From positions 1 through 31,313 of the IMG/VR virus record IMGVR_UViG_3300005264_000036: a stretch of DNA of 31,313 nucleotides; one strand, 5' to 3'. Position 1 is the first letter of the stretch. Each line of letters starts with the position of its first letter. Positions 1 through 16,830 of this stretch are shown here, one piece after another. The notes beneath the pieces were generated by a model. That model was not told the DNA's origin and made no database searches. It was given only the letters and a program-made list of their open reading frames with translations. A program made the translations under genes and the position numbers. Source of the stretch: a virus.

Positions 1-75
1 TGTTGCTGTTGGCGATGTTGTTTACCTCCGTTCGCAATCTACTGTTTCTGAAAATGGGCTTTATGTTGTGGGTAC
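1..75. repeat. Terminal overlap, left copy (identical to 31239-31313)
   Basis: The first 75 bases are identical to the last 75 bases of the window. The repeat lies inside a protein-coding gene and its reading frame is continuous across the junction, so the sequence closes into a circle of about 31,238 bp. The most economical reading is an assembly overlap of a circular or circularly permuted genome rather than a true packaged terminal repeat. Confidence 0.95.
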
Positions 76-1210: not shown

Positions 1211-1245
1211 TGATTCTTTCTTTTTAGCGTTGGAACTCACTAGAT

Positions 1246-1270
1246 AGCGTACTTACTGTACGCTTTTTTT
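1246..1270 (+). terminator. Rho-independent terminator after the fibre gene
   Basis: A 7-bp perfect stem AGCGTAC/GTACGCT with a 5-nt loop is followed by a run of seven T. It lies 36 bp after the fibre stop codon and closes the rightward tail operon. Confidence 0.88.
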
Positions 1271-1274
1271 ATCG

Positions 1275-1289
1275 TATTTTAAAATAAAA
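1275..1289 (+). promoter_or_regulatory. Palindromic upstream element TATTTTAAAATAAA (copy 1 of 3)
   Basis: The 12-bp palindrome TATTTTAAAATA plus flanking A residues begins 65 bp before the ATG at 1340. The same sequence lies 69 bp before the replication operon (8286) and 66 bp before the gene at 13098. Constant distance from the first gene of each unit suggests a promoter-linked element or operator. It is followed here by three short TTTACG-like repeats. Confidence 0.6.
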
Positions 1290-1339
1290 TTTATACGTTT
1301 ACGTTTACGTTTTATATAGTTTATTTATTTAGGTGTATT

Positions 1340-1675
1340 ATGGATTTATTGAAGAAAAGAGTATATATTTCGGGACCTATTACAGGTGCTACTGAAGAGC
1401 AATTAAAAGCTTTTACTGATGCTGAAAAACTATTGAAAACTATTGGATTTGAACCTGTGAATCCTGTTACTCTGGGGCAGTCTTATATTAAATTATATGG
1501 TTCTACTAATGAAAAAGACATCTTGTTAAATGATCTGGAAGAGTTAGGAACATGTTCAACTATGGTGCTTTTACCTGGTTATGGGAAATCGCTTGGATGT
1601 ATTACTGAAATAGCTTTTGCTAATTTTTGTGGTATTACTATTTGGGATGAGTTTGATGCTAATGGGTGGAAGTAA
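1340..1675 (+). CDS. DUF4406 / nucleoside deoxyribosyltransferase-like protein
   Basis: This 111-aa protein starts with the signature VYISGPITG (about residues 8-16). It then shows an A-x2-L-x3-G-x3-VNP pattern (residues 27-43) and the C-terminal LLPGYGKSLGCITEIAFA (about 77-94). These are hallmarks of the DUF4406 group, related to nucleoside 2-deoxyribosyltransferases (Rossmann-like). Phages often carry such small proteins; a role in nucleotide metabolism is assumed, not demonstrated. The ATG follows a TAGGTG site by 5 nt. The gene heads a short unit with its own palindromic element upstream, and its stop overlaps the next start (TAATG). Confidence 0.82.
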   Translation: MDLLKKRVYISGPITGATEEQLKAFTDAEKLLKTIGFEPVNPVTLGQSYIKLYGSTNEKDILLNDLEELGTCSTMVLLPGYGKSLGCITEIAFANFCGITIWDEFDANGWK

Positions 1676-1868
1676 TGTATAATATTAAAAAGAAAGATGA
1701 TTCTTGGTATTTCAGTGATGTTTCGATGAAAGCATTAAGTCTTTTGAATTTAAATTTACTGAAAAGACAATAAGATCAAAACTGCTTATTATAATTGAAC
1801 GTTTTGAAAATTCTATTATTAAATCACTCTATCATGCAAAGATTCTTGAGTGTAATTTTGTTGAATAA
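1675..1868 (+). pseudogene. Small unknown gene split by a -1 frameshift
   Basis: An ATG overlapping the stop of the DUF4406 gene opens a 32-codon frame that stops at 1771-1773. From about 1720 the -1 frame stays open to a TAA at 1866-1868 and reads like a continuation (FDESIKSFEFKF onward, to LECNFVE). Fused, it would be about 64 aa. The second half has no start codon of its own. The shift point is near GATGTTTCGATG, where one missing T in a T run would explain it. No classical slippery heptamer is present, so a deletion or sequencing error is more likely than programmed frameshifting. Function unknown. Confidence 0.55.
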
Positions 1869-1891
1869 TATAATGCCTTGGAGGTGATATT

Positions 1892-2089
1892 ATGCCTGTT
1901 ATGAAGAAATGGCGTGCTTGGTGCCGTAATTCTCAGTTTGCACATGAAAAAAGTGAGCAAATTATTGAAGCTACTTGTAAAGAAGAAGCCTTTCTGGCTC
2001 TTCGTGCAATGGATCCAAAAATTAAAATGCAAGATTTTAGTTTATATAAGCCGTTGCCTTGTGATGAAATCCCATCACTGAAATTATAA
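1892..2089 (+). CDS. Small conserved-looking hypothetical protein
   Basis: This 65-aa protein is preceded by one of the strongest Shine-Dalgarno sequences in the genome, GGAGGTGATATT then ATG, which supports it as a real gene. It is basic at the N terminus (MPVMKKWRAWCRN) with two Cys residues in the first half and one near the C terminus. The segment EATCKEEAFLALRAMDP looks helical. It is the last gene of the short rightward unit and is followed 26 bp later by a strong terminator. No family is recognised. An opposing reading frame at 1832-2032 is a shadow. Confidence 0.7.
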   Translation: MPVMKKWRAWCRNSQFAHEKSEQIIEATCKEEAFLALRAMDPKIKMQDFSLYKPLPCDEIPSLKL

Positions 2090-2115
2090 AATTCCTTTTT
2101 ATTGTTTATACGTAT

Positions 2116-2148
2116 AGCCTATCTCCCCCCCCGAGATAGGCTTTTTTT
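2116..2148 (+). terminator. Rho-independent terminator, end of rightward unit
   Basis: The stem AGCCTATCTC/GAGATAGGCT is 10 bp and perfect, with a C-only loop, and runs straight into seven T. It faces the leftward terminator at 2235-2267, so the two transcription units converge here. Confidence 0.93.
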
Positions 2149-2234
2149 GCTCGCGACTTCCCTGCCGTGAGCAAAATATCCCAAAATGAAAATTAGAAAA
2201 ATTTGGTATCGTGGCGAAATTTACTGGTATTTTA
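2149..2234. other. Intergenic spacer between converging terminators
   Basis: No gene is visible. It contains a 7-bp hairpin with one mismatch (GCTCGCG at 2149 and CGTGAGC further on) without a T run. The rest is AT-rich. Confidence 0.5.
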
Positions 2235-2267
2235 TAAAAAAAAAGCTCCAGTATTGCTACTGAAGCT
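2235..2267 (-). terminator. Rho-independent terminator of the leftward operon
   Basis: On the minus strand the stem AGCTTCAGTA/TACTGGAGCT (10 bp with one G-U pair, loop GCAA) is followed by nine T. It lies 33 bp past the stop of the last leftward gene. Confidence 0.9.
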
Positions 2268-2299
2268 ACGATGTTTCATAAATAAAAGACTGAGCTTGT

Positions 2300-2686
2300 T
2301 TATACTCCGTGTTTTTGGTCGATTTTAAGTTTAGATTCTTCAATCTCTATTAATTTGCAAGCGGCAATAAAATCAATTATCGGTCTTCGTGGAATAGGTC
2401 TTGTTATTGGGAGAAATATTGGAATATCGATAAAATTATATCTTCTTATTAGTGGTGTTTCAGTTTGATTAAGATATCCTGTTTCAATTATCCATCTATA
2501 TTTTTTCTTTACTGCAAAGTGGAACTCTTCGGGATTTGTGTTATATACTTCTTCATCTGCGGTGCTGGGAAATTGCCTTTTAATCTCAATCCCTTTGTAT
2601 TTCGCTTCAATCAAGTATGGTATAAGCCATATATAGTATTGTGCATCGTAAACAAATTGTCTTAGTTTGTGTATTATTATTATCAT
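2300..2686 (-). CDS. Hypothetical protein, last gene of leftward operon
   Basis: The frame is open from 2860, but the likely start is the ATG at 2686. It follows AAAGAGGATAA and lies 1 nt after the stop of the upstream gene, giving 128 aa. The longer version would overlap the upstream gene almost completely. The protein starts MIIIIHKLRQFVYDAQYYIW and is rich in Ile, Tyr and Arg. The segment ITRPIPRRPIIDFIAACKLIEIEE lies near the C terminus. It could be a small peripheral membrane or nucleic-acid-binding protein, but no family is recognised. Confidence 0.65.
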   Translation of the reverse strand: MIIIIHKLRQFVYDAQYYIWLIPYLIEAKYKGIEIKRQFPSTADEEVYNTNPEEFHFAVKKKYRWIIETGYLNQTETPLIRRYNFIDIPIFLPITRPIPRRPIIDFIAACKLIEIEESKLKIDQKHGV

Positions 2687-2687
2687 T

Positions 2688-2930
2688 TTATCCTCTTTTA
2701 ATAAGTGTGTTTTTGATTGCATTATATAGTATTTTATGGTTTTCGTCATTAGTGTTGGAACGGTCAGCCGTATAATTGAAAAAAATATTCTGAAAGTCCA
2801 TTCCAATATATAATATGTCTGTATTTGTGTAAAAGATATATACTCTGAGAGCGTTGTCAATTATAAATTGAGTCGATCCTGGTATTGCATTTTCTTTTAT
2901 CATTTCAATCATTTTCTCTTGACTAATCAT
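2688..2930 (-). CDS. Hypothetical protein
   Basis: This 80-aa protein begins MISQEKMIEMIKENAIPG. Its ATG overlaps the stop of the upstream gene by 4 nt (ATGA), and its own stop is 1 nt from the next start. The middle reads like a small alpha/beta domain (ALRVYIFYTNTDILYIGMDF). No family is recognised. Tight coupling on both sides supports it as a genuine gene of the leftward operon. Confidence 0.7.
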   Translation of the reverse strand: MISQEKMIEMIKENAIPGSTQFIIDNALRVYIFYTNTDILYIGMDFQNIFFNYTADRSNTNDENHKILYNAIKNTLIKRG

Positions 2931-3475
2931 TTAATCTCTCCTTTTTTTCCTTTATGCTCATCATTATACTGGTCAATGATAAGATTCCATTCAGTTTCTG
3001 TTATTTTAATTAGATCTGGGGTTTTCATCTCCTCTTCGATATATAAAAGTATCATCTCATTGCTATCAATTTTAATTATTTCCATCCATGGTACTGTAAA
3101 GTTATCGCCATGTTTAATGTCTAGGATTTTATATATATATGAAAAGTTAGACGTTTTTAGACCATGTTCTAATAATTGAAAAATCTCTTTTCCAAGTTTT
3201 GTTCTTTTGTTCGGTGTTAAAACATCTTGATGTTTTTTGTGTTTTTTCCAAGCCTTTGTTATTAATTTTTCTGGATGAAGAAATTTGAATCCTGTATATG
3301 TCCTTGTTCGTAATAATGTTTGCTGGCTGCTGCTTCCTGTATATTGTTTCCAATTGCTACCGCATATTTCTTCTATAGCATCAATATTTTCTTTATCTAG
3401 TTCTAGTTCATGGGTTCTGAGCTCGTGAAATTTCTTGTAAATTTCAGAGTCTTTATTTGTTATTTTATAATACAT
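2927..3475 (-). CDS. Hypothetical protein
   Basis: This 182-aa protein begins MYYKITNKDSEIYKKFHELRT, an opening I associate with uncharacterised phage proteins. The first 40 residues are charged and probably coiled (KKFHELRTHELELDKENIDAIEE). A basic stretch follows near residues 70-95 (KAWKKHKKHQDVL). It then has an alternating hydrophobic segment and a Lys-rich C terminus. Function unknown. Its stop overlaps the downstream start, and 22 nt separate it from the DUF5131 gene upstream. Confidence 0.72.
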   Translation of the reverse strand: MYYKITNKDSEIYKKFHELRTHELELDKENIDAIEEICGSNWKQYTGSSSQQTLLRTRTYTGFKFLHPEKLITKAWKKHKKHQDVLTPNKRTKLGKEIFQLLEHGLKTSNFSYIYKILDIKHGDNFTVPWMEIIKIDSNEMILLYIEEEMKTPDLIKITETEWNLIIDQYNDEHKGKKGEIK

Positions 3476-3497
3476 TTCTTATCCTTATTATTTTCTT

Positions 3498-4178
3498 TTA
3501 AATTTTCCATAGTAATTCTCCTTGAATATATTTATTTCCCATTATTGCTTTTAAGCTATCTTTCATAAATAGTTTAATCCCTCTTTCTTTGCAGTCTTGT
3601 TGTAGCTGAAGAACCCATTCTTTTTTTGGCTTAATTTTACCCTTGCGATTCCCAGTTTCAGCTCCTACTATTATTGATTTTATATTTGCTAAATGGTTGG
3701 GGAGTGTTATAGGTTCTAATAGTGGTTCTATACTTATAAAGTCAATAGTAGCATAATCCAAGCTTAAAATTAAATTTTCTAATTGTGTTTTATCGGTAAT
3801 TGTTACTCCAATAAATGTATTTGGAAAATTTATTTCAGTACTAAAATGTGATGTGTTATATTCATCTCTGCCAATATTCTTTCCGTTTGTGAGAAATATA
3901 TATTGATGATGATTGTATTTTTCTATCATTCCTGCTATGTAATTTATAGCTGTGTACCTCCAAAAATAAATATCGCTCATGCTATTCATAAATATAGATC
4001 TGCCTTTTCCAATTTTTAATTTTTCAAGCTGACCTAAAAAGTATTGCGGATCTGTGAAGTCTTCCGTAAAATGAAATCTTTGGTTCATTTTACGTGCGTA
4101 GCAATATTCACAATTATTTTTACATCCGATTACTGGATTTAATGTGCTATTGCACCAGTCTATTTTTGTGTTATTCAT
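3498..4178 (-). CDS. DUF5131 (Gp37/Gp68 family) cysteine-cluster protein
   Basis: This 226-aa protein starts MNNTKIDWCNSTLNPVIGC and contains the cluster C-x3-C-x2-C (CKNNCEYC, Cys19/23/26). That is the spacing used by radical SAM enzymes to hold a 4Fe-4S cluster. The sequence continues with FTDPQYFLGQLEK, SMSDIYF, a YIFLTNG segment, FIGVTITDKTQLENL, DFISIEPLLEPI and IIVGAETGNR. This is the recognisable order of the phage Gp37/Gp68 (DUF5131) family. The barrel-like order of strands also fits radical SAM. The substrate is unknown. It overlaps the next gene upstream by 4 nt. Confidence 0.87.
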   Translation of the reverse strand: MNNTKIDWCNSTLNPVIGCKNNCEYCYARKMNQRFHFTEDFTDPQYFLGQLEKLKIGKGRSIFMNSMSDIYFWRYTAINYIAGMIEKYNHHQYIFLTNGKNIGRDEYNTSHFSTEINFPNTFIGVTITDKTQLENLILSLDYATIDFISIEPLLEPITLPNHLANIKSIIVGAETGNRKGKIKPKKEWVLQLQQDCKERGIKLFMKDSLKAIMGNKYIQGELLWKI

Positions 4179-4675
4179 ATTGCCACTCCCACCTTAAGTA
4201 AAAAACCTCCATATTCAGTATATTCAAAGCCTCCTGTAACCCCAAATTTAGGAGTTATATTTACGATGGCAATAAGTTCCGCTCCGTAATTAAAGTGGCT
4301 ACCTCGCTTATGTGTGTAGGTGCCGTATGGTATTGGCTCTTGATTTTCAAGTTTAGAAAAATCGGAAAAACCGACTATACTATTTAATGCTACTCTAGTT
4401 TTATCAGAGAGCTTTAAACTCTTACCCAAATAAGCATTATATATAACTGTTTCAATTCCATCTGACTGACCATATCCGCAGCCAAGTTTCAATATAATTT
4501 TATCGCTAGAATATCCAGCTTCAACAACGCAATTTATATCACGTCCTTTACCATATCCAACTAATAAATCACCACCTATTAAATTCACCGTACTAAGAAT
4601 CAGAAGTATTGCTATTATTACAGCAAAATCTATGAGTCTTGCTTCTATTCGCTGCATTTCTTTTTCAGTTTTCAT
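4175..4675 (-). CDS. Predicted membrane-anchored / outer-membrane beta-barrel-like protein
   Basis: This 166-aa protein has a charged N terminus (MKTEKEMQRIEARL) and one hydrophobic segment at about 16-33 (FAVIIAILLILSTVNLIG). It may be an uncleaved anchor or an unusually long signal peptide; a second start at Met7 would shorten the charged part. The rest is a series of alternating Gly/aromatic strands (LLVGYGKG, CVVEAGYSS, LKLGCGYGQ, FNYGAELIAIV, KFGVTGGFEY, GGFLLKVGVAI), typical of a small outer-membrane barrel. If so, it could alter the lysogen surface as other prophage outer-membrane proteins do. That role is inference, and no family is identified. Confidence 0.6.
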   Translation of the reverse strand: MKTEKEMQRIEARLIDFAVIIAILLILSTVNLIGGDLLVGYGKGRDINCVVEAGYSSDKIILKLGCGYGQSDGIETVIYNAYLGKSLKLSDKTRVALNSIVGFSDFSKLENQEPIPYGTYTHKRGSHFNYGAELIAIVNITPKFGVTGGFEYTEYGGFLLKVGVAI

Positions 4676-4887
4676 TATTCTGCTTCCTTATAATATATTT
4701 TTAAAAAACAAGTCTTTTGTGCTTTGTCCCGAAAGCGTGGAGTGTTATTCAAATACACATTCTTTACTGATACTCCGTGTGCTTCTTCATATTGGTTTAT
4801 CAGAGATTGTATATTATCTTCTAATAGCTTTTTTTCAGCTTTTCGGTGATGTTCTTCCATGTTTTTAACTTCTTCTTTAACTTCCAT
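4675..4887 (-). CDS. Small charged hypothetical protein
   Basis: This 70-aa protein begins MEVKEEVKNMEEHHRKAEKK, a highly charged helix. It is followed by SLINQYEEAHGVSVKNVYLN and a C-terminal strand. The ATG overlaps the upstream stop (TAATG) and has a good site (GAGGGG, 7 nt away). The opposing frame at 4632-4868 is a shadow. Function unknown; the helix-strand design would fit a small regulator or adaptor. Confidence 0.68.
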   Translation of the reverse strand: MEVKEEVKNMEEHHRKAEKKLLEDNIQSLINQYEEAHGVSVKNVYLNNTPRFRDKAQKTCFLKIYYKEAE

Positions 4888-5357
4888 TATAATTCCCCTC
4901 TGGTAACATCAATACTTCGGTGCCCATTTGAATTATTTGTGTAGATTATTTCTTTTATTCCCAAAAATTCGAAGTCTTCTTTTTGATCAATAAGGTGAAG
5001 TATATCTCTACTTAATTCATCAGCATGATATTCCAGTGATTTTAAGTGTATTTCGCTTAGATCTACGTGTCTTGTGGATCCAATTAATTGCCATTCGTTT
5101 GAGCTGGCATTCTCTTCATTCATTATATATTTTGTTTTTTGGCTAGTCCCTATGTAAATAAATTGTCCTACCATGATTGGTATTCTATATATTAATTTTG
5201 GTGTTTTTGTTAGTATAAATTCCTTATACTCATCTAATTTCCAATTATCTTCTGGTATGAGTGTAAAAATATCAAATCCTTCTCCCTTATTAATAAATCT
5301 TAATCCAAAGTTTTTTAAATGATTTATTTGGTTTGGTGAAATATTTAGGTGTTTCAT
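4887..5357 (-). CDS. Hypothetical protein
   Basis: This 156-aa acidic protein begins MKHLNISPNQINHLKNFG. It has alternating helix and strand segments and no Cys or recognisable catalytic motif. The middle region (IPIMVGQFIYIGTSQ) looks like a beta hairpin. It overlaps both neighbours by 1-4 nt, so it is translated as part of the leftward operon. No family is recognised. Confidence 0.7.
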   Translation of the reverse strand: MKHLNISPNQINHLKNFGLRFINKGEGFDIFTLIPEDNWKLDEYKEFILTKTPKLIYRIPIMVGQFIYIGTSQKTKYIMNEENASSNEWQLIGSTRHVDLSEIHLKSLEYHADELSRDILHLIDQKEDFEFLGIKEIIYTNNSNGHRSIDVTRGEL

Positions 5358-5554
5358 TTTCTCTCTCCATATAATTTTAATTTAACCACGTCCTTCCAAC
5401 TTTGATTTAAGCTGTCCCATTCTTGGAAGTAATATTCTTGATTATGTTTTGTCGGTAATATGATTTCTGAAAGACAGCAAGTGCATCTAATCCTTCCTAG
5501 AAATACCCAAAACTCGCTATTATTGCAGCAAGGACATTTAATTGATTCGTCCAT
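5354..5554 (-). CDS. Small zinc-ribbon protein
   Basis: This 66-aa protein carries two Cys pairs, CPCC at about 7-10 and CTCC at about 24-27. The pattern is that of a zinc ribbon with two knuckles 13 residues apart, as in phage restriction-alleviation (Lar-like) and related small zinc-finger proteins. The C-terminal half (EWDSLNQSWKDVVKLKLYG) is helical. It probably binds zinc and a nucleic acid or protein partner; the partner cannot be told. It overlaps both neighbours. Confidence 0.75.
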   Translation of the reverse strand: MDESIKCPCCNNSEFWVFLGRIRCTCCLSEIILPTKHNQEYYFQEWDSLNQSWKDVVKLKLYGERK

Positions 5555-5952
5555 TAGATTATCTCCTCAAGTAATTCACAATCATCAATCAATATCTCTA
5601 TATTTACAATCCTGGTTTCTATTTTATTACTCAAATTCCCGTCGCAATCGCAATCTGTAATATATTCCGATAGAGTTAATCCTGGATCTTGAATAAATCC
5701 ATCTTCAGCATATATGGGAATATTATACTCAGTCCAATTAACTTCTGGTACCTCCAGTAAATTATTACTACTATTTTCTAATTGATTGAGATATTTCCTA
5801 AATTGTTGCGTTGCTTCGGCTGGTAGCTCCCCTGTTAAATAAAGAAATGATATTCCGTATGCTTGGGATTTATGTTCTGCTATATAGCATTTACCATGCC
5901 CTTGTTTATAGTCATTTTTGAACATGTAAGCTTTGAGTTTAGAGTTTGACAT
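5554..5952 (-). CDS. Hypothetical protein
   Basis: This 132-aa protein begins MSNSKLKAYMFKNDYKQGHG. A central segment (TQQFRKYLNQLENSSNNLLE) is probably helical. The C-terminal third is acidic (DCDCDGNLSNK, then IEILIDDCELLEEII). It lies 9 nt after the integrase stop and overlaps the zinc-ribbon gene by 1 nt. Function unknown. Confidence 0.7.
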   Translation of the reverse strand: MSNSKLKAYMFKNDYKQGHGKCYIAEHKSQAYGISFLYLTGELPAEATQQFRKYLNQLENSSNNLLEVPEVNWTEYNIPIYAEDGFIQDPGLTLSEYITDCDCDGNLSNKIETRIVNIEILIDDCELLEEII

Positions 5953-5961
5953 ATTGTCTCC

Positions 5962-6852
5962 TTAATTATTATTATTGAGTGGATGAAATTTAGAGTGTGA
6001 TTCCATCATTTTTGCTGTTGAAATTTTTGCGTATATACGCGTTGTTTTTATATCTGAATGCCCTAACATCTCTGATATATCATTTATAGGTGCTCCATTG
6101 TTAAGCATGTGTGTTGCGAAGCTGTGTCGTAATTCATGCCCTCCGTGGAGTGTATGCCCGTGTTCTTGAAAGATTGTTCTTAGTATCGTATAGACTGATT
6201 CTCTTTTTAATTTATTAGCCCGTTGTGTTATAAATAAATACTCTACTTTTTTTCGATTTCTTTCATAATATTGAATGAGAAGTTTTAAATTTATTGCTGT
6301 TTCACTGCTGAATGGTACTATCCGAGTCTTTCTTCCTTTGCCATCAACTCTAACAGTATTGGTTTTGAAGTTAATGTCCTTGATTTTAATATTAATCAAC
6401 TCACTTGTTCTGACTCCAGTATCATAAAACATATATATAATAGCTATATTACGCATATTTATCCATGTTTTTGGATATTGGGAATTTAAAGATTCTATCA
6501 CCTTTAATATAACTTCTTGTGTTAATATTTCTGGCAATTTTTCTTCTCTTTTGATAGCATCAATATTATATACTACGTTACCTGGCAGAATATCTATTGC
6601 TGTTAAGTGCAGTAGGTAATTTTTAATAATTGATACCTTTGTAGCAACACTATTAATAGTATTTTTTTTCAATAGTATATCATTTATATACTTCTGTACC
6701 AGCTCGCTAGTAATATTCTTATCATCGCTAATCCCAATTTTTACTAGCCATCTATACATCTCATCTATACATGATCTATAGTTTTTGATAGTTAGCTCCG
6801 AGCAATTTGAAGCTCGTTTTTTATCTAGGAATGATTCTATATTTTTTTTCAT
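5962..6852 (-). CDS. int: Tyrosine recombinase / phage integrase (Xer-like size)
   Basis: This 296-aa protein has the two-domain layout of XerC/XerD-size tyrosine recombinases. A core-binding SAM-like domain spans about 1-85 (SELTIKNYRSCIDEMYRWL) and the catalytic domain about 105-285. All catalytic residues are visible: Arg148 in TGVRTSEL, Lys172 in GKGRKTR, His239-x2-Arg242 in HELRHSFATHML, His265 in LGHSD and the nucleophile Tyr274 in TRIYAKI. It catalyses site-specific integration or excision, or possibly resolution. It lacks an N-terminal arm-binding domain. It overlaps the upstream gene by 4 nt, so no attachment site can flank it directly. Confidence 0.95.
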   Translation of the reverse strand: MKKNIESFLDKKRASNCSELTIKNYRSCIDEMYRWLVKIGISDDKNITSELVQKYINDILLKKNTINSVATKVSIIKNYLLHLTAIDILPGNVVYNIDAIKREEKLPEILTQEVILKVIESLNSQYPKTWINMRNIAIIYMFYDTGVRTSELINIKIKDINFKTNTVRVDGKGRKTRIVPFSSETAINLKLLIQYYERNRKKVEYLFITQRANKLKRESVYTILRTIFQEHGHTLHGGHELRHSFATHMLNNGAPINDISEMLGHSDIKTTRIYAKISTAKMMESHSKFHPLNNNN

Positions 6853-7115
6853 GCTTTCGCCTCGCTTAATTCAGATAAGTAATCTAGATATTCAGCGACT
6901 GCTTCTGCAAATGCGTCTTGCTCAGTCATGGAAGGGTAGAAGTTAGCTTTGCTAATGTATTTCCATTGTTTATTATCATAAAGACAAATTACACCATTTT
7001 TGCATTGGAAGTTTAATGTCTTGTTTAGGAATTTTACAGATAGCCTATAGATATATTTATTTTCTTCAAAAAACATGAAGATTTTATCTAGTAAGTTACT
7101 TGGTTTAGTTTTCAT
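6849..7115 (-). CDS. Hypothetical protein upstream of integrase
   Basis: This 88-aa protein begins MKTKPSNLLDKIFMFFEENK. It has a Tyr/Phe-rich beta region in the middle and an acidic helical C terminus (AFAEAVAEYLDYLSELSEA). It overlaps the integrase start by 4 nt and may be co-translated with it. An excisionase role is possible by position only; no helix-turn-helix is obvious. Confidence 0.65.
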   Translation of the reverse strand: MKTKPSNLLDKIFMFFEENKYIYRLSVKFLNKTLNFQCKNGVICLYDNKQWKYISKANFYPSMTEQDAFAEAVAEYLDYLSELSEAKA

Positions 7116-7176
7116 TATTTATCCTGTTATTGAGTTTTTGTTTAAGTTTATAAATTTCATTATCTTTATCATTAAT
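7105..7176 (-). pseudogene. Coding-like extension after an in-frame TGA
   Basis: Directly after the TGA stop of the gene at 7177-7509 the same frame stays open for 23 codons to a TAA. It encodes INDKDNEIYKLKQKLNNRINNEN, broken here as INDKDNEIYKLK and QKLNNRINNEN. This continues the charged, coiled-coil pattern of the preceding protein. It overlaps the start of the next gene. A recent nonsense mutation or readthrough would explain it. Confidence 0.4.
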
Positions 7177-7509
7177 TCAGTCTTCATAATCATTTATTTC
7201 ATTTTGCATCTGGTCTAGTTCCTTCCGCCACTCCTGCATATATTCAAATATATATCTTATTAAATCCCTTTTACGTGTGAGAGCTTTTGGAAGTTCATAT
7301 TTGCTGGGTGTGCCATCTATTAATATATTAAGCGTGGTTTGATAAATATTTATTTCAAACTTAAATACAGAGTATTCATATTCAAATGCAGTAATATAAT
7401 TAGTGAGGTCATATTTCCCTTTTGGTGTCTGCCCTTCTCGTGATTCGGTAAGGTTTGCTATTCCTAGCAAACTTATCTTCTTGAGGCGTGAATTAATTGT
7501 GGTTGTCAT
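7177..7509 (-). CDS. Hypothetical coiled-coil protein
   Basis: This 110-aa protein begins MTTTINSRLKKISLLGIANL. The first 75 residues alternate strands and the last 35 form a charged helix (YMQEWRKELDQMQNEIND). The start follows a GGAG site. The frame continues past its TGA into 23 more coil-like codons, so the ancestral protein may have been about 134 aa. No family is recognised. It is the first gene after the terminator-like hairpin at 7533-7589. Confidence 0.68.
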   Translation of the reverse strand: MTTTINSRLKKISLLGIANLTESREGQTPKGKYDLTNYITAFEYEYSVFKFEINIYQTTLNILIDGTPSKYELPKALTRKRDLIRYIFEYMQEWRKELDQMQNEINDYED

Positions 7510-7532
7510 TATAAATTCTCCATTTTTTTATT

Positions 7533-7589
7533 AAAAAAAACCGTCCCAGTGCGTGTTATGTTTGACGATTCTCCGATACGAAGACGGCT
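7533..7589 (-). terminator. Terminator-like hairpin between leftward genes
   Basis: On the minus strand AGCCGTC at 7589 pairs with GACGGTT near 7540 (one G-U pair) and is followed by eight T. The loop is long, about 37 nt, so the structure is less certain than the others. It separates the gene at 7610-7834 from the rest of the operon. Confidence 0.55.
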
Positions 7590-7598
7590 ATAACCATA

Positions 7599-7613
7599 CA
7601 ATTTACTTGTTAT
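7599..7613 (-). repeat. 15-bp repeat next to a stop codon, copy 1
   Basis: The minus-strand sequence ATAACAAGTAAATTG occurs here and again at 7919-7933. In both places it lies at a stop codon and is followed by a terminator-like hairpin. Confidence 0.7.
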
Positions 7614-7834
7614 TTGATTCTATATACTTTATTTGTCTTCATCATATTCTTTACAACGTCTAATTTCAATTTTTCTATTTGATGTCGTGGTATGTTTTTT
7701 ATAGTAGGATAAAAGTAAGGTAAATAAGATTTTTCTTCTTCTTTTAGTTCCATTGATTTGGGGATTTTTACCTCGTCTAATTTTTCAATCATTATCCAAT
7801 ATTCTTTACATTCTTCAAATAATATATTTTTCAT
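7610..7834 (-). CDS. Small hypothetical early protein
   Basis: This 74-aa protein begins MKNILFEECKEYWIMIEKLD. It is Lys- and Glu-rich and probably helical, with a central LPYFYPTIKNIP break. A weak AAAGAGA site precedes the ATG. It is flanked by terminator-like hairpins on both sides, so its expression may depend on readthrough. No family is recognised. Confidence 0.62.
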   Translation of the reverse strand: MKNILFEECKEYWIMIEKLDEVKIPKSMELKEEEKSYLPYFYPTIKNIPRHQIEKLKLDVVKNMMKTNKVYRIK

Positions 7835-7855
7835 ATTAATATCTCTTTATTATTT

Positions 7856-7879
7856 TAAAAAAGGGGCTTTTCAGCCCCT
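7856..7879 (-). terminator. Rho-independent terminator in the leftward leader
   Basis: The stem AGGGGCT/AGCCCCT (7 bp) with loop GAAA is followed by seven T on the minus strand. It stands after the 54-aa gene and before the remaining leftward genes, so it must be read through for the integrase operon to be expressed from the upstream promoter. Confidence 0.88.
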
Positions 7880-7918
7880 AGGCTGTTCCTGTTTGTCGCA
7901 GGTGGTTTACCAGAACCT

Positions 7919-7933
7919 CAATTTACTTGTTAT
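7919..7933 (-). repeat. 15-bp repeat next to a stop codon, copy 2
   Basis: This is an identical copy of 7599-7613 (minus strand ATAACAAGTAAATTG). The stop codon of the 54-aa gene lies within it. The stretch between it and the terminator can fold further, with GTTCTG at about 7915 near CAGGAAC at about 7890. Confidence 0.7.
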
Positions 7934-8087
7934 AATATTTTTCAGATATTGCTATGAGTGTAGGGTTGTCTAATAACTGGACAACCATTGATGTTAGTTC
8001 ATTATTTTTTTCTGCTATCTTTATTATATCATCAATAAGTTTTTTAAAATCTTTTTCTCTGATTTTTGCTTCGATTAATTTCCCCAT
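7923..8087 (-). CDS. Small (54 aa) first leftward gene
   Basis: The 54-aa frame begins MGKLIEAKIREKDFKKLIDD and ends SEKYYNK. The ATG follows GGAGAAGATGA, giving a good Shine-Dalgarno (GGAG) at a suitable distance. Composition is charged and helical. It is the promoter-proximal gene of the leftward direction and is followed by a strong terminator. That arrangement fits a small early regulator or leader product, which is an inference from position. No helix-turn-helix can be identified with confidence. Confidence 0.65.
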   Translation of the reverse strand: MGKLIEAKIREKDFKKLIDDIIKIAEKNNELTSMVVQLLDNPTLIAISEKYYNK

Positions 8088-8354
8088 CTCATCTTCTCCA
8101 ATTTTTAAACAATTTTGGAACTTTTAAGTCCCTTTACAATTCAATTACGATTATATAAACGTAATGTTATATCTTTATTGTAAAATATTGAAAAAAAATT
8201 AAAGTTTTTTTTAAAGTATTTTATAATTATCTTGTTTATTAATTGTTTACAGTCGAAAATATTTTTAAAATATTTTTATTTCTATTATTTTAAAATAAAA
8301 TAATCGTGGTTTCGTTAATTGGTTTTTGACTTTTTAAATATTTATAGGTAGGTT
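8088..8354. promoter_or_regulatory. Divergent control region between leftward and rightward early genes
   Basis: This 267-bp AT-rich region holds no gene. Leftward, a perfect TATAAT (8155 to 8150, minus strand) is followed by the near-palindrome GGAACTTTTAAGTCCC at 8117-8132, before the 54-aa gene. Rightward, TTGTTT (8243-8248), a 17-bp spacer and TAAAAT (8266-8271) form a plausible sigma-70-type promoter. The palindrome TATTTTAAAATAAAA then lies at 8286-8300. This is the expected place for a lysis/lysogeny switch, but no repressor gene is recognised beside it. Confidence 0.6.
8286..8300 (+). promoter_or_regulatory. Palindromic upstream element TATTTTAAAATAAA (copy 2 of 3)
   Basis: This second copy lies 69 bp upstream of the ATG at 8355 and about 15 bp downstream of the candidate -10 box at 8266-8271. 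That would place it just after the transcription start, a typical operator position. It matches copies at 1275 and 13032. Confidence 0.6.
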
Positions 8355-8786
8355 ATGGCAAGATATAAATTATATTTTACACTTGGCGAAGTTAATAAGA
8401 TCGTTTGTTGTGGTGAGTTTATTTTTATGAAAGAGGCTATGTCAATGTTCAGTAAGTGGCAAGCTGTTAAAAACATTCCAGTATCATCTAAAATCCAACT
8501 CTGTGAGGGTGCCAAGGTTTTGTTTGAACATATTACTTATTGTGATTACTGGCATTTAAAGCATCTCTCTAGTCCTCATTGGAAGAGTAGAGCTGAAATA
8601 AATAATGTATATAAACAATTTAACATAAGTAACTTCGTTAAGCAGTCAGAAGAATTCATAGATTATTATACCGACGATCAAGGCACTTACTATTATAACG
8701 AATTATCAGTTATGAGTGAGTATGCCCGCTTGAATGAAGCGAAATTAATTAATTCATCAGTAAATGAGGTTTATGGTAATGTTTAA
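8355..8786 (+). CDS. Hypothetical protein of the replication operon
   Basis: This 143-aa protein begins MARYKLYFTLGEVNKIVCCG and has an AGGTAGGTT site before the ATG. It has a basic/aromatic middle (CDYWHLKHLSSPHWKSRAE) and a Tyr-rich acidic stretch (EFIDYYTDDQGTYYYNE). It overlaps the primase-helicase start by a few codons, so it is co-translated with it and may act in replication initiation or its control. No family is recognised. Confidence 0.68.
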   Translation: MARYKLYFTLGEVNKIVCCGEFIFMKEAMSMFSKWQAVKNIPVSSKIQLCEGAKVLFEHITYCDYWHLKHLSSPHWKSRAEINNVYKQFNISNFVKQSEEFIDYYTDDQGTYYYNELSVMSEYARLNEAKLINSSVNEVYGNV

Positions 8787-11442
8787 TTATGATTCTATAG
8801 ATTGTCGAGAAATAGCCGTTAGATTAGGTGTGCAGCCTCAAGATGGTACTTATTCAGCAAGTGCTGAAAATTCTACTTTTCATTGTTTTAATAAAGCGGC
8901 TCACAAAAATGGAGATCGTAACCCTTCCCTTTCTATATATTATGGTGGTTTCCTTTGTGGTGGTTGTGGGATTAAAGGTAATCGTCGCGATCTTGTGATG
9001 GATATTCTTAGAATAGATGAGAACGCTGCCGATGAGTGGTTAAGATCAACTTTTCCGCACGCTGTTAGTAATTCAAATGTTCCTGTTCCTATAGCTTCTC
9101 CTGCCGCTATTAAAGAGCAGCCTTCTGATAATAAACGAAGTTACCAGGTTAGGCATATTAGTTCCTCTGCGAAGCATAAAACTCTTCATTATCGTTTAAC
9201 ACCTGATCAATTGCGTGATGTTACTGAGCAGGATATTATAAATATTGAAAAAGAAATAAATAAATTCTATTCTTTGGATGCTTTTGTTGCTACTCGTTGT
9301 AAAATTATTGATGGTCCTGTTGAAATTACTCTTAAAAAAACTGGTGAAAAACGCAATATAAAAGTCTATGGTATTGTTTTGCCTCCCAAAGGTGCTGCAA
9401 ATATGTATAGCGTTCCTTGTCTTAATGAAAATTGTGATGAGGCAATAGTTGTTGAGGGTGTTACTGACTTCCTAACAGCTGCTACTATGCAATTACATGC
9501 TCATTTTACTATATTAGCACGCTTTAATAAAACAACCGCTATAAAAGTTAATAAAGGTATTTCTAATTACTTTGTAGTTCGTGATGATGATGAAACCGTT
9601 GATCAGCTTCGTAAATATGTTCATAACGAAGTGAGATTGAAAAATACAATTCGTGAATGTATTTTATCGGATATAAACTATAAAGATTATACAAAAAAAG
9701 TAAAAGACTTGTCTGATTTATGGGAATATTTTAATCGTAATGGCAAAGATTTTGAATTCGATAGTGCAATAGATTGGTTTATTGGTTTAATACGTAAAAA
9801 ATCTCAATTATTGGTGTTTGAAGGTGAGAGTTTTAAGGATGAAAATCTAGCAATTTCTGAGCAATTTTGGTCTGACGATGGAAAAACAATATTTTTGACG
9901 GCTTTTTATAAAGAGCTCGAAAATAGAGGTTGGTGCTGGATACGTGATGAATTTTCAAGTGATGTCGATAAGTTTGAATTGGTCCAAATCAAGAATAATA
10001 TAATTATTCGGAAATTCCCTGCCGAGCTGCCAAATTATGCTATGCGAGTGATTGCTGAGCAAGAAATCGCCGCTATTGATCCAAAACTGGGTAATGCTGT
10101 TGCTCGTGCCCTTCATCGTGATCATCAAATCTTTTCGCCAGTGAAACTTTCATATTTGCCGTTCAAAAATATTGATACATATAGGGATGATTTTAATACT
10201 TTTGGATTGTTTTTCAATGATTTTACTGTTGGTTTATCTGCCGATGAGTTTGGTTATGGGATTGAAAAAATAGATTATTGTGATTTAAGTAAACCTATTT
10301 GGGCTTCTTCAATCAAAAATAATGATGTTGATTTTAAAATAATTTCTGAAACTTTTGATTATTATTCATCTGATCAAACTCCTTATCTGACTTTAAATAG
10401 CGAGAAGCACGCTGCTAAATCTGAGTTTGCTGAGTTTTTAAAGGATATTTGTAGAAATCCAGATACTGAAGAACCGGATATTCCACGTTTAATGAGTTTA
10501 GTATCGGTTTTTGGTTATCTTTGCCATGATAGGCAACCAGGTGAGGCAATAACAGTTATTTTTACTGAATCTAACCTTGGGCATACATCCGAGGGTGGAA
10601 CTGGTAAATCGATGATTATTAAAGCTCTGGGGCATGTCAGAAATATATGTATATTACCCTGTCGAGATATGAAATCTTCGGACGACTTCAAATATGATAC
10701 GTTTATGAAAAATGATAGAGTTATTGTATTTGAGGATGTTAATAAGTCTTTCGATTTCCAGACTTTATATAATACTTCAACTGAAGGTATAACAATAAAT
10801 AAAAAAATGGCTAGGAAAGTAACTCTGCTTGATTGGTTATCGCCAAAAACTGTTGTTACTAGTAATGATCCTGTTGCTTCTGACGATGGATGGAGTACAG
10901 AGAGGCGACGTTTTGACATGGAATTACTTAGGTATTATAATAAGCTGCGTTCCCCGGAGATTAAATTCGGTCATCGTTTCTTCAGTGGGTGGGATTCTAA
11001 AGAGTGGAGTAAATTTTATGGTTTTGCGTGTTGGTGTGTTTCTGAGTTCTTTAGAAATCAAAACCGTATAGCCGACTATGAAAGTCGCACCATTAAACTT
11101 CGTCAGTTAATAGTTGGTCTATCTCAAGAGGCAGTCGATGATATTGACGAGTGGTTTAGATCTCAGGCTCTTTCTACTTACCACGAGTCTAATCATGGTA
11201 TTGTTGAGTTTTTGGTTGATACTCTTGGTAAGCGTGAGCTTAGGACTAAAATTCGTGATACCGTCGGAGTTGAGCAAAAAAGATTACCAGATAAGATAAT
11301 TGATACTCTATTAAATAAATATTGCCATATTAATAAAATCAATACAAAAAGTGTTAGGAAAGATAAAAAACGTCATACTCTTTATTATGGTTCTTTATCA
11401 GCCTTTGGTTTGTCTGACGATGATTTAAAACCTTCTCTTTAG
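8779..11442 (+). CDS. Primase-helicase fusion (CHC2 zinc finger, TOPRIM, SF3 helicase)
   Basis: This 887-aa replication protein starts at 8779, the ATG 9 nt after GAGG; ATGs at 8764 and 8773 are less well placed. A CHC2-type zinc finger lies near residues 35-65 (HCFNKAAH, then CGGC). A TOPRIM core follows, with VVEGVTD at about 223-229 and RDDDE at about 267. The C-terminal third is a superfamily 3 (D5/DUF5906-like) helicase: Walker A GGTGKS at about 606-611, Walker B-like VIVFEDVNK at about 648-656 and sensor KTVVTSNDP near 690. It would melt and prime the phage origin. No DNA polymerase gene is present, so elongation must use the host replisome. The candidate origin lies directly downstream. 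Confidence 0.92.
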   Translation: MFNYDSIDCREIAVRLGVQPQDGTYSASAENSTFHCFNKAAHKNGDRNPSLSIYYGGFLCGGCGIKGNRRDLVMDILRIDENAADEWLRSTFPHAVSNSNVPVPIASPAAIKEQPSDNKRSYQVRHISSSAKHKTLHYRLTPDQLRDVTEQDIINIEKEINKFYSLDAFVATRCKIIDGPVEITLKKTGEKRNIKVYGIVLPPKGAANMYSVPCLNENCDEAIVVEGVTDFLTAATMQLHAHFTILARFNKTTAIKVNKGISNYFVVRDDDETVDQLRKYVHNEVRLKNTIRECILSDINYKDYTKKVKDLSDLWEYFNRNGKDFEFDSAIDWFIGLIRKKSQLLVFEGESFKDENLAISEQFWSDDGKTIFLTAFYKELENRGWCWIRDEFSSDVDKFELVQIKNNIIIRKFPAELPNYAMRVIAEQEIAAIDPKLGNAVARALHRDHQIFSPVKLSYLPFKNIDTYRDDFNTFGLFFNDFTVGLSADEFGYGIEKIDYCDLSKPIWASSIKNNDVDFKIISETFDYYSSDQTPYLTLNSEKHAAKSEFAEFLKDICRNPDTEEPDIPRLMSLVSVFGYLCHDRQPGEAITVIFTESNLGHTSEGGTGKSMIIKALGHVRNICILPCRDMKSSDDFKYDTFMKNDRVIVFEDVNKSFDFQTLYNTSTEGITINKKMARKVTLLDWLSPKTVVTSNDPVASDDGWSTERRRFDMELLRYYNKLRSPEIKFGHRFFSGWDSKEWSKFYGFACWCVSEFFRNQNRIADYESRTIKLRQLIVGLSQEAVDDIDEWFRSQALSTYHESNHGIVEFLVDTLGKRELRTKIRDTVGVEQKRLPDKIIDTLLNKYCHINKINTKSVRKDKKRHTLYYGSLSAFGLSDDDLKPSL

Positions 11443-11471
11443 ATTACTTCTCATTTTTTTTCTCCATTCAT

Positions 11472-11500
11472 AGCCAGTTTTGTTTACTGGCTTTTTTTTT
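11472..11500 (+). terminator. Rho-independent terminator after primase-helicase
   Basis: A perfect 7-bp stem AGCCAGT/ACTGGCT with a T-rich 7-nt loop is followed by nine T. It lies 30 bp after the stop codon and closes the replication operon. Confidence 0.9.
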
Positions 11501-11515
11501 GCTCTTTTTTAAAGA

Positions 11516-11565
11516 AATACCAAAAAATACCAAAAACTTTTAATTTTACCAAAAACTTCTAATAT
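11516..11565. repeat. Tandem iteron-like repeats, TACCAAAAACTTYTAATWT
   Basis: Two adjacent 19-bp direct repeats (11528-11546 and 11547-11565) differ at two positions. They are preceded by a shorter copy of the TACCAAAAA core at 11518. Tandem repeats directly downstream of the replication gene are the classic design of an iteron origin. Confidence 0.75.
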
Positions 11566-11612
11566 TTTAAGTCGTTTTAAACCAATGAATTAATATTGAG
11601 CTATAGGAATAA

Positions 11613-11649
11613 TACCATATTTTCATATATATTCATATTAAATATGGTA
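11613..11649. repeat. 10-bp inverted repeat in origin region
   Basis: TACCATATTT and its exact reverse complement AAATATGGTA are separated by 17 bp. The arms contain the TACCA core of the iterons, suggesting a binding site for the same protein in opposed orientation. Confidence 0.7.
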
Positions 11650-12080
11650 AACATAAATAATACTAATTTATAGAAGTTATTTGATTCTATACCAATTTTA
11701 TGAGCATTATTGCTATAGTAGATCCCTATTACTAGTTACTATATATACTATATATTATATATATATTCTTGATACTTAATATTATTGTAGTGTTTATTTG
11801 GTATAATGGTTGTAAGTTATTGAAATCAATAAAGTTAATGGCACCAAAAACAGCCAAAAAAAATGGTACTTAATATTCCAAATTTGGTTTTATGATATAA
11901 GTCTTTATTTTAATTAGCTTATTAAAGTTGATGTATTTGGTACTTTAGTTCTTAATTTGGTTGATTGCTTTCTTACTTTTCAATTGTTCCACAGGTGAGT
12001 AGATTTTTATATTAAGTCTTTATCTCTTCAATATTAAGATTATTTTGAAGTATTTTACAACATTATACCTATAATGTTAT

Positions 12081-12125
12081 AAGAAAAACCTAACTAATAT
12101 CATAATTTATTAGTTAGGTTTTCTT
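12081..12125. terminator. Bidirectional terminator-like hairpin
   Basis: The arms AAGAAAAACCTAACTAAT and ATTAGTTAGGTTTTCTT form a long stem (one extra A) over a short loop. T-rich tracts are present on both strands. It lies beyond the end of the reversed gene at 12168-12596 and would stop transcripts from either side. Confidence 0.8.
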
Positions 12126-12167
12126 GATTGTTTAATTTTTAGGTTTTTTTGGCATTTTGCCATTTTG

Positions 12168-12596
12168 TCAAGAGATTATTATCGTTGCCAACCATCCATC
12201 TTCGATATGTTCCACAACGTAAGGTGAGAGTTGAATCCCATTCAGCTTAGCAAATCTATTATTAGCTCCTCCCAATATCGTATATATATCTTCAATCCTA
12301 TCCAATATCCCCTCTGGATACCGTGCCGCTCCAGTTCCTGTTGGTGAGCTCGCTCTCATATACAGCCAGAGCTGAACAACCTCCTGTAAGTCATACAATC
12401 TATCATCTGTAGTATAACCTGTTGCTATCGAATCGCTAATATTTAGTGTGATGTTAGTAGTCTGCCGCTTAAGCATCTTGGTGGTAGATTCATAGTCTGC
12501 CTCTCCAAGAGTCTGAATAAACTCTATCTCTTCAAATGCTTCATCAGCTAACAGTAAACTCTTAATCAAATCGCTCTTGTCTTGTATCAATGACAT
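12168..12596 (-). CDS. Reversed-orientation hypothetical protein (tail terminator-like?)
   Basis: This 142-aa protein is encoded alone on the minus strand between two rightward modules. The ATG follows AGGAG by 5 nt. It starts with charged helices (DEAFEEIEFIQTLGEADYES), has a central DLQEVVQLWLYMRAS helix and ends EHIEDGWLATIIIS. Length, helix order and the C-terminal strand recall phage tail terminator proteins. The rightward head-tail operon lacks an obvious one, but the match is by feel only. Its orientation argues for an independently expressed accessory gene instead. Function remains open. Confidence 0.6.
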   Translation of the reverse strand: MSLIQDKSDLIKSLLLADEAFEEIEFIQTLGEADYESTTKMLKRQTTNITLNISDSIATGYTTDDRLYDLQEVVQLWLYMRASSPTGTGAARYPEGILDRIEDIYTILGGANNRFAKLNGIQLSPYVVEHIEDGWLATIIIS

Positions 12597-12739
12597 ATAA
12601 GCTCCTATATATAATCAGTTAAAAAAGTTTAGACGTGTTAATAATAACCTTATTGCTATTCAATCGCCTTAGTTAATGCGCCGTTCGTTCGCTCCCCCTC
12701 TGTGCCGTACCCTCTCGGCGGGGGGCTCTCTCTCGGCGA

Positions 12740-12821
12740 GCATTGGGTTTCGGCTGTTTGGCAGCTGCATTGTCCCTACGGGGCATTCTTATATTTTTTT
12801 TTTACGCCGAAAACCCAATGC
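12740..12821 (+). repeat. Long inverted repeat with internal hairpin and T run
   Basis: The left arm GCATTGGGTTTCGGC and right arm GCCGAAAACCCAATGC pair over 15 bp with one bulge. They enclose the palindrome GCAGCTGC and the hairpin TGTCCC-TAC-GGGGCA, followed by a long T-rich stretch. A transcript would fold into a compact two-level structure. Confidence 0.75.
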
Positions 12822-12916
12822 TAAATAAGAGCGTGATCATATCGTTTTCCTGGCAGCAGGTAAATGATAACCAACCATTTTCCTCTCGGTGGGCAATTGG
12901 TTTGTTAAATTATATT

Positions 12917-12930
12917 TGTTCCATGGAACA
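12917..12930. promoter_or_regulatory. Perfect 14-bp palindrome TGTTCCATGGAACA
   Basis: This exact dyad is centred at 12923/12924 in the non-coding region upstream of the 13098 operon. Such a perfect palindrome is typical of a dimeric repressor operator. I saw no second copy in the window. Confidence 0.55.
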
Positions 12931-13013
12931 TAGTAGGGGGGGTACGTCCCGAAATCTCTAACTCGAAAAAAATCTTTTCCCATCTTCCTAAAATATTTGA
13001 GATTTGAATTCGT

Positions 13014-13045
13014 TATAATATGCAGAAGTTTTATTTTAAAATAAA
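13014..13045 (+). promoter_or_regulatory. Promoter-like TATAAT followed by TATTTTAAAATAAA (copy 3 of 3)
   Basis: A perfect TATAAT at 13014-13019 has no good -35 partner. The palindrome TATTTTAAAATAAA follows at 13032-13045, 66 bp before the ATG at 13098. The order of -10 box then palindrome matches the replication operon at 8266-8300. Confidence 0.6.
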
Positions 13046-13097
13046 CTTTTACGTAATTGAGTAATTCTAAGTAAAAAAGCAAGGATACCGAAGAAAA

Positions 13098-13457
13098 ATG
13101 GCAAAATATGAAGTACCAAATATTATTCCAATCGAAAAAAGAGGGGAAGCGGCGAAATTAGCTAAAATCACCTTTGATGATAATGTTACTTTGTTTCGTA
13201 GTCAAGCTTCGGAAGGTTTATTAGAGCGTATCCCAGTTTTTTTTGAAGCTTTGGATGAGATGAAGGAAACTGCGGGTGCAAAATATGCGGCTGTGTTTAT
13301 TGATACTGCTGCTAAAATATTTCCGCGTTCTCAAGAAACAGAAGTTAAGTTTGATTTTACTCCTCCGGTAATCAATATGGGTGTTCGTGCTCCTGTTGGT
13401 AATGAAGATGAAAATAAATTATTAAAAAATAAGGTGCAGGAAGATGGAAAAATATAG
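13098..13457 (+). CDS. Hypothetical protein, first gene of rightward late region
   Basis: This 119-aa protein begins MAKYEVPNIIPIEKRGEAAK. It has helical stretches (LLERIPVFFEALDEMKETAG, then KYAAVFIDTAAKIF) and a Pro-rich loop, ending in a charged tail. A small-terminase or DNA-packaging role is conceivable, since no small terminase is recognised beside the large one, but the evidence is weak. It has its own promoter-like sequence and overlaps the next gene by 14 nt. Confidence 0.65.
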   Translation: MAKYEVPNIIPIEKRGEAAKLAKITFDDNVTLFRSQASEGLLERIPVFFEALDEMKETAGAKYAAVFIDTAAKIFPRSQETEVKFDFTPPVINMGVRAPVGNEDENKLLKNKVQEDGKI

Positions 13458-13788
13458 TCGTATTATAGATATTGCCGATTCAGATACTTTTACAATCGTT
13501 CTTTCGTTGGCTCTTTTGCCAGCTTTTCCGCGTATAATTACTATGCAGGCGACTGGTATTGCCGATGATACTGATCCTATTCCTACAGCTACTGTAGATA
13601 TATTTGGTTCTATTAATGGTGGTTCTAGTTGGTTCCCTGTTGATTCTGTTAGTGTTGGTCCTACTGCTGCCGTTGATTCGGGTGTTATTGATACTCCTAT
13701 TGAGCAGCTTAAGTATGTTTTGGATGAAACTACTACTTCAACTACTGGAATTATTGATATTGATATTTTAGTTGATTATGGGGTTTAA
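13444..13788 (+). CDS. Hypothetical virion-like beta protein
   Basis: This 114-aa acidic protein is rich in Thr, Asp and Ile and has the phrase ATVDIFGSINGGSSWFPVDSV (split here as ATVDIFGSIN and GGSSWFPVDS). That pattern occurs in Ig-like or decoration-type phage proteins (comparing a measured value with expected values in beta sandwiches). It overlaps the preceding gene and lies 2 nt before the fibre gene, so a fibre-associated or head decoration role is plausible. No family is firmly recognised. Confidence 0.62.
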   Translation: MEKYSRIIDIADSDTFTIVLSLALLPAFPRIITMQATGIADDTDPIPTATVDIFGSINGGSSWFPVDSVSVGPTAAVDSGVIDTPIEQLKYVLDETTTSTTGIIDIDILVDYGV

Positions 13789-13790
13789 TT

Positions 13791-16033: not shown

Positions 16034-16064
16034 AAATATAAATTAATTATAAAAAAGGAAAATC

Positions 16065-16382
16065 ATGAATTTTTTAAAAATAACAAGTAGCAAAAACATT
16101 AATTTACGTGCCATATTTGGTACTACAGGAACTAAAATTAATTGGGCTTCTTTAGGATTGGATTCTAAAGCACCCCAAGAATATTTCGGAGTAAATCCAT
16201 CAAATAATAATATATTGCAAATTTTAGCAATAGATAATATTGATATTATAAATAGCAATATAACAACATGGCAAACGAATGCAAATCATAGAAGTATTGC
16301 AGCAACTTTAACTGTAATAAATGAAACAACAATGACATCAGATAAAGCAGCTTTTATTGCTTCTTTACCAGCAACAGAATAA
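16065..16382 (+). CDS. Hypothetical protein downstream of fibre genes
   Basis: This 105-aa protein begins MNFLKITSSKNINLRAIFGT and has an AAGGAAAATC site before the ATG. It contains LGLDSKAPQEYFGVNPSNN and ends TMTSDKAAFIASLPATE. Rich in Asn, Ile and Thr, with A-ending codons like the fibre gene, it appears to belong to the same cassette. It could be a fibre chaperone or a small tip protein. No family is recognised. Confidence 0.68.
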   Translation: MNFLKITSSKNINLRAIFGTTGTKINWASLGLDSKAPQEYFGVNPSNNNILQILAIDNIDIINSNITTWQTNANHRSIAATLTVINETTMTSDKAAFIASLPATE

Positions 16383-16829: not shown

Positions 16830-16830
16830 T

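Follow-up and report, generated by a model that had tools for sequence, protein, structure and literature searches.

A repeated A/T-only palindrome heads the three rightward units of an orphan phage and may be a dispersed operator

In phage P1, operators of the C1 repressor are scattered over many operons; they are asymmetric, and their repressor is known. At the late promoters of phage T4, a short A/T-rich element replaces the full host promoter. Cluster A mycobacteriophages, such as L5 and TipsytheTRex, carry a short site that recurs at promoters and in gaps of the genome and is recognized by one phage repressor (PMC9283540). Their stoperators, more than 20 in number, are asymmetric 13-mers bound by a monomer with a helix-turn-helix and a stoperator domain. 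T4 late promoters are an example of phage-specific promoters (PMC6024815). Here we analyze the IMG/VR virus record IMGVR_UViG_3300005264_000036, whose full 31,313 nucleotides are called the window, and in which a 14-mer, TATTTTAAAATAAA, enclosing a perfect palindrome recurs ahead of separate transcription units. That a real shared cis-element heads the rightward units is well supported, and we lean slightly toward reading it as a dispersed operator.

Like the cluster A phages, this genome repeats one short site along its length, and like P1 it has several lytic units under one dispersed, here putative, operator; these two systems are the precedents for an operator reading. Unlike the cluster A phages, it has three symmetric sites of A and T only at unit heads and no recognized repressor, and the stoperator pattern of an asymmetric 13-mer in more than 20 copies, with gaps within operons occupied, was not found. 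Unlike the P1 operators, the site is palindromic, with a regulator that has not been recognized. A short A/T-rich element before genes also recalls the T4 late promoters; however, the element here is a perfect palindrome, and no sigma factor or co-activator genes were recognized. The kind of control proposed is already known, and what would be new is the sequence and the unrecognized regulator. Among the papers listed in literature searches, none dealt with the motif, as judged by titles and abstract openings.

Across the whole window, TATTTTAAAATAAA occurs exactly in three plus-strand copies, starting at 1275, 8286 and 13032; a fourth exact match (13030-13043) is the minus-strand reading of the third palindrome. 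The copies stand 65, 69 and 66 bp before the first ATG of their units. These positions and distances had been given by a first-pass annotation and were correct on recount. The palindromes consist of A and T only and have perfect symmetry over 12, 14 and 16 bp:

1275-1286, unstranded: palindrome copy 1, TATTTTAAAATA, 12 bp; 14-mer at 1275-1288, 65 bp before ATG 1340
8285-8298, unstranded: palindrome copy 2, TTATTTTAAAATAA, 14 bp; 14-mer at 8286-8299, 69 bp before ATG 8355, in the divergent intergenic region 8088-8354
13030-13045, unstranded: palindrome copy 3, TTTATTTTAAAATAAA, 16 bp; 14-mer at 13032-13045, 66 bp before ATG 13098

With the units as drawn below, the exact palindrome is found at three of three rightward heads and at neither of the two leftward ones, so that the same site stands at several lytic units of one genome. 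The site and its copy number, symmetry, position at the rightward heads and near-constant spacing to the ATG are all read directly from the window.

The site is commoner than composition explains. Dinucleotide shuffles of the whole window gave an expectation of 0.01 matches of the 14-mer, and none of 100 shuffles reached four. As intergenic stretches mostly have a higher A/T content than the remaining DNA, the three leaders themselves were shuffled too (100, 128 and 266 nt upstream, in 5000, 5000 and 2000 trials, respectively): a common 14-mer appeared in none of the 12,000 trials, and the longest word common to all three shuffled leaders was 12, seen once. A common 10-bp palindrome arose in 0 of 5000 leader shuffles, and a common 8-bp palindrome in 13 of 5000. 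Apart from repeats within the gene at 15329-16033, TATTTTAAAATAAA is the only 14-mer in the window with at least three plus-strand copies at least 100 bp apart. When up to two mismatches are allowed, the window holds 16 matches (5.7 expected; shuffle maximum, 12), six of which are the three true copies and shifted readings of them on the other strand, leaving ten. One near-copy lies in the same divergent region as copy 2 and is a possible second site there, although alone it is not significant:

8174-8187, minus strand: one-mismatch near-copy, TATTTTACAATAAA

Repetition of this kind was also rare among the 365 loci that we fetched (3.86 Mb, mean about 10.6 kb; fragments, overlapping and duplicate contigs included, and 120 of them chosen for holding the 16-mer). 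Two of the 365 (L007 and L057) carry some 12-bp palindrome at a minimum of three places spaced by 100 bp or more; in a further locus (L190), the A/T palindrome TATTATATAATA occurs three times, but two of these copies are separated by 67 bp.

The record is probably a whole phage genome, since it has a 75-bp direct terminal repeat (bases 1-75 equal its last 75) and a single long reading frame continues over the join. Units were drawn from gene direction and from terminator-like sites in a consensus scan of bases 1-20000, which found 26 such sites against 9.8 in shuffles. The layout suggests five units, three rightward and two leftward:

1-1210, plus strand: end of the late operon; its last reading frame spans the join from an ATG at about 31033
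1246-1264, plus strand: terminator-like hairpin and T run after the gene ending at 1210, at the late operon end and 10 bases before copy 1
1340-2089, plus strand: DUF4406 cassette, with a DUF4406 gene at 1340-1675 and an unassigned gene at 1892-2089 that perhaps has its own promoter
2116-2142: terminator-like hairpin after the DUF4406 cassette (consensus scan)
2267-2244, minus strand: terminator-like hairpin of the leftward unit (consensus scan)
2300-8087, minus strand: leftward unit with a XerC/D-like recombinase (5962-6852), a DUF5131 protein and small genes without assigned function; no exact palindrome at its head
8355-11442, plus strand: replication operon, with a 143-amino-acid gene without assigned function and an 892-amino-acid DUF5906 protein
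11472-11492: terminator-like hairpin after the replication operon (consensus scan)
12596-12168, minus strand: single leftward gene; none of the terminator-like sites listed by the consensus scan belongs to it on its own strand
13098-31313, plus strand: late operon with fibre, endolysin, TerL, portal, major head protein, tape measure and tail genes, crossing the terminal repeat to 1210

The first-pass annotation had proposed three rightward units, the last of them a fibre and lysis unit. The palindrome indeed heads all three, but the unit from 13098 extends far beyond fibre and lysis and is the whole late operon. Possible internal promoters without the palindrome occur as well, for example before 1892 and 17844 (hexamer pairs matching 10 of 12); shuffles contain promoter-like pairs of this kind equally often (103 found, 102 expected).

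What could such a site do? We consider it slightly the better bet that the palindrome is a dispersed operator through which one dimeric regulator switches the replication, late and DUF4406 units together. One symmetric DNA-binding protein would bind the palindrome at each rightward head, and by doing so would hold or release the whole rightward programme. Repression of the lytic programme would be the likeliest use, with activation as the alternative sign. Perfect symmetry over 12, 14 and 16 bp fits recognition by a dimer, and the operator reading draws on the presence of a symmetric site at each lytic head together with an integrase-type recombinase. The recombinase at 5962-6852 scores 216 bits as XerC and 204 bits as XerD, both short of the curated cut-offs (335 and 330); a tyrosine recombinase of the XerC/D type suggests a temperate phage, which would need a lytic switch. 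A more far-reaching proposal seems to us rather unlikely: that all lytic units of an orphan temperate phage, replication and late genes alike, are governed by one palindrome of A and T only, with no late activator besides, the regulator being either a co-opted host protein or a protein outside the known DNA-binding families.

Several observations weigh against a dispersed operator. There are only three sites, and a fixed spacing to the ATG is not something that an operator requires. No promoter above background was found at the three sites. In none of the seven loci sharing at least two genes with the window does TATTTTAAAATA occur, and none is known with a comparable leader (the shorter core ATTTTAAAAT is present once, in one of the seven). 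Searches of the window proteins against PHROGs, Pfam, NCBIfam and PDB sequences, which covered 40, 29, 10 and 3 of the 41 called genes, respectively, yielded no DNA-binding regulator above the cut-offs. The product of 6849-7115 has a sub-threshold SWIRM match only (17.1 bits, cut-off 28.6), and AlphaFold models of two candidates were of low confidence and uninformative (mean predicted local distance difference test scores of 45.6 and 60.9). The earlier remark that no regulator is recognized therefore still holds for the proteins and libraries searched. The regulator might be an unrecognized small product, for instance of the leftward unit, or a host protein. A site repeated at all rightward units offers a handle for pulling out the missing regulator of an orphan phage in which neither a repressor nor an activator was recognized. 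A further adverse point, a distance bias of the same palindrome elsewhere, is taken up with the explanation that it favors.

That explanation, which we regard as possible yet doubtful, is that the palindrome is a promoter element or a host-factor site. In one form, the TAAAAT within the palindrome would be the -10 box of an activator-dependent or phage-specific promoter; in the other, a host protein favoring this A/T palindrome would act at promoters. Either would account for the steady spacing to the ATG (65-69 bp) and for the absence of a -35 box. Each copy contains TAAAAT, which matches TATAAT at five of six positions and tops the hexamer list for copy 1, and its use as a -10 box would fit the constant distance better than an operator would. 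Moreover, a CGT starts 16, 14 and 15 bases past the palindrome centers, which would give the site a direction, although this was noticed post hoc. On the other hand, promoter elements need no perfect palindrome of up to 16 bp, and family searches recognized no sigma factor, RNA polymerase, late activator or co-activator, many genes being without a family. Two -10-like boxes and a further short word lie near the copies:

8266-8271, plus strand: -10-like TAAAAT, 20 bp before copy 2, at background level
13014-13019, plus strand: -10-like TATAAT, 18 bp before copy 3; its best -35 partner matches two of six positions
13049-13056, unstranded: TTACGTAA, just after copy 3; TTACGT also occurs at 1299 and 1305, after copy 1

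The two boxes had been reported in the first-pass annotation and exist as written, 20 and 18 bp before the motif, but they are ordinary for an A/T-rich genome. Around the three copies, the highest-scoring hexamer pairs reach 8, 9 and 8 of 12, with 8 the commonest score among 3112 sampled positions, and no -35/-10 pair stands above background at any copy. At 18-20 bp upstream of copy 1, no hexamer matches TATAAT beyond three of six. Because the boxes are at background level and copy 1 has none, the claim that the palindrome lies just past the transcription start could not be upheld, and we would say only that it may lie close to one. Of the proposed shared operator or promoter element, the shared cis-element is well supported, whereas the promoter part is weak.

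The TTACGT word might mark a second shared element. Five of its 14 matches fall in the 11 larger intergenic segments, all five in the three head regions; two of the five are two readings of one TTACGTAA, and the match at 8159 is nearer the leftward unit. Because the choice of word was post hoc, we keep it as a mere lead.

The distance bias was seen in unrelated viral contigs. A motif scan for the 16-mer TTTATTTTAAAATAAA gave at least 120 stretches, its sites being our loci L094-L213. Since a tblastn search with the window proteins returned only two integrase matches in these stretches, the contigs are not kin of this phage. Among the distinct sites listed, the 16-mer is intergenic at 64 of 109 (59%), compared with 859 of 1664 (52%) for other all-A/T 16-mers; after clustering of related contigs, it is intergenic in 55 of the 93 clusters listed, and a distance to a start is available for 53. 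The bin of the window's own copies, 60-79 bp before a start, shows no clear excess (5 of 53 clusters, 20 of 310 controls, p = 0.39), but 80-119 bp before a start lie 14 of the 53 clusters, compared with 21 of the 310 controls (Fisher p = 9e-5, in a bin picked post hoc from the same 16-mer sites before clustering). These results suggest that the precise spacing is a feature of this genome, whereas some looser link to promoter distances may hold generally. The excess speaks for a promoter-linked or host-factor role over a private operator, and it led us to lower the operator reading and to raise this alternative. It also bears on the description of the element as phage-specific: as its position in unrelated viral contigs is not neutral, the palindrome may not be particular to this phage. 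Should a planned test confirm the bias, a more widely shared host factor or promoter element would be indicated. In four of these contigs (L098, L159, L163 and L181), TATTTTAAAATA is present twice, 1339 bp apart, with one copy beside a hairpin and T run, a setting that, on our reading of the sequence, resembles that of copy 1 in the window.

A chance product of A/T-rich intergenic DNA is an improbable source of the repeats, though still a conceivable one with so few sites. The palindrome is indeed all A/T, the listed intergenic segments have 8-42% GC and the three unit heads 26, 18 and 39%, and the core ATTTTAAAAT recurs inside genes at 10331 and 18882 and at a gene end at 23737. However, no leader shuffle of the 12,000 reproduced a common 14-mer, and no second 12-bp A/T palindrome is present more than once in the window. 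Furthermore, TATTTTAAAATA was met twice in 1.27 Mb of other viral loci, and its reversed control three times.

The near-constant distance to the start codon would also suit an element of the leader RNA, with the palindrome affecting stability or translation as part of the 5' untranslated RNA, and in the minimum-energy fold of copy 2 it does pair with itself (9 pairs). We hold this to be very unlikely. On its own, the 16-mer RNA forms no fold (0 kcal/mol), and in copies 1 and 3 the palindrome is not paired with itself. Folding of the three leaders is weaker than the shuffle average (z = 1.07, 0.83 and 2.00), and they have no stable structure in common. A 16-mer that does not fold, within leaders no better than shuffles, points to recognition at the DNA level. 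Rfam and tRNA scans of the window returned nothing.

Use of the palindrome as a recombination site by the phage's own recombinase is scarcely credible: the enzyme is strongly XerC/D-like (216 and 204 bits) and the half-palindrome resembles a Xer arm with two mismatches, but Xer sites need a central spacer between their arms and those of the palindrome abut, no dif-like site with two 11-bp arms and a 6-bp center was found in the window at up to three mismatches, and arm-like matches number 45 against 50.6 in shuffles. As a separate matter, a XerC/D-like integrase invites the question whether the phage integrates at a dif-like site.

The phage appears to be an orphan, without a close relative in the collections searched. 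The replication protein, TerL and the major capsid protein (MCP), used as single queries against viral contigs, gave no relative. Profile scans of the viral contigs found only distant homologs, at 24-31% identity among the best 80 matches listed; the portal profile gave three loci at 26%, and a scan of genome contigs at least three loci at 24-28%. In a phage collection, tblastn likewise returned distant matches only (replication protein, 22-27%; TerL, 24-29% among the matches listed; DUF5131 protein, 37% at best) and none for the portal, the MCP or a 674-amino-acid protein. The nearest syntenic record among the matches listed is IMGVR_UViG_3300003688_000005, with its near twin 3300005452_000009; the pair share TerL, portal, MCP, endolysin and one more gene with the window at 25-31%. 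In these two and a third contig (together L367-L369), the only repeated 10-bp palindromes are AAAAATTTTT and TTTTTAAAAA.

A partial parallel comes from the phage record MW202828 (our locus L007), whose replication protein is distantly related (24%) and in which, as here, a palindrome is repeated upstream of genes. This palindrome, GTGTCGTTAACGACAC, has 14 copies in bases 35,000-60,850 and none in 1-35,100; the copies lie at 8748-20157 of the locus, that is, 43.7-55.2 kb of MW202828. Half of them (7 of 14) stand between genes, at 30-53 bp upstream of the annotated start that follows (six at 30-37 bp), and the other seven are inside genes. The arrangement looks like an operator or stoperator array. 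Unlike the palindrome described here, it comprises 14 copies, contains G/C, falls half within genes and differs in sequence and spacing. In L057, the palindrome GTCTTCGAAGAC has four dispersed copies (6071, 13418, 15813 and 20282), possibly another operator array.

The window contains further repeats and palindromes. Before the leftward unit, an ATTACG / CGTAAT inverted repeat (8144-8165) flanks a TATAAT-like box and may be a leftward operator. Just after the replication operon, three TACCAAAAA repeats at 11518-11555, the window's only ones, sit in a 725-bp A/T-rich non-coding stretch; they are iteron-like and could mark an origin. In the 39% GC non-coding stretch before the late operon, there is a perfect 12-bp inverted repeat, AGCATTGGGTTT / AAACCCAATGCT, at 12739-12822 with arms 60 nt apart. 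A further perfect 14-bp palindrome, TGTTCCATGGAACA, lies at 12917-12930, about 170 bp upstream of that operon. Finally, the gene at 15329-16033 has internal repeats of about 123 bp (DRLYSCD...NYEIDIDTL) and likely encodes a variable repeat protein.

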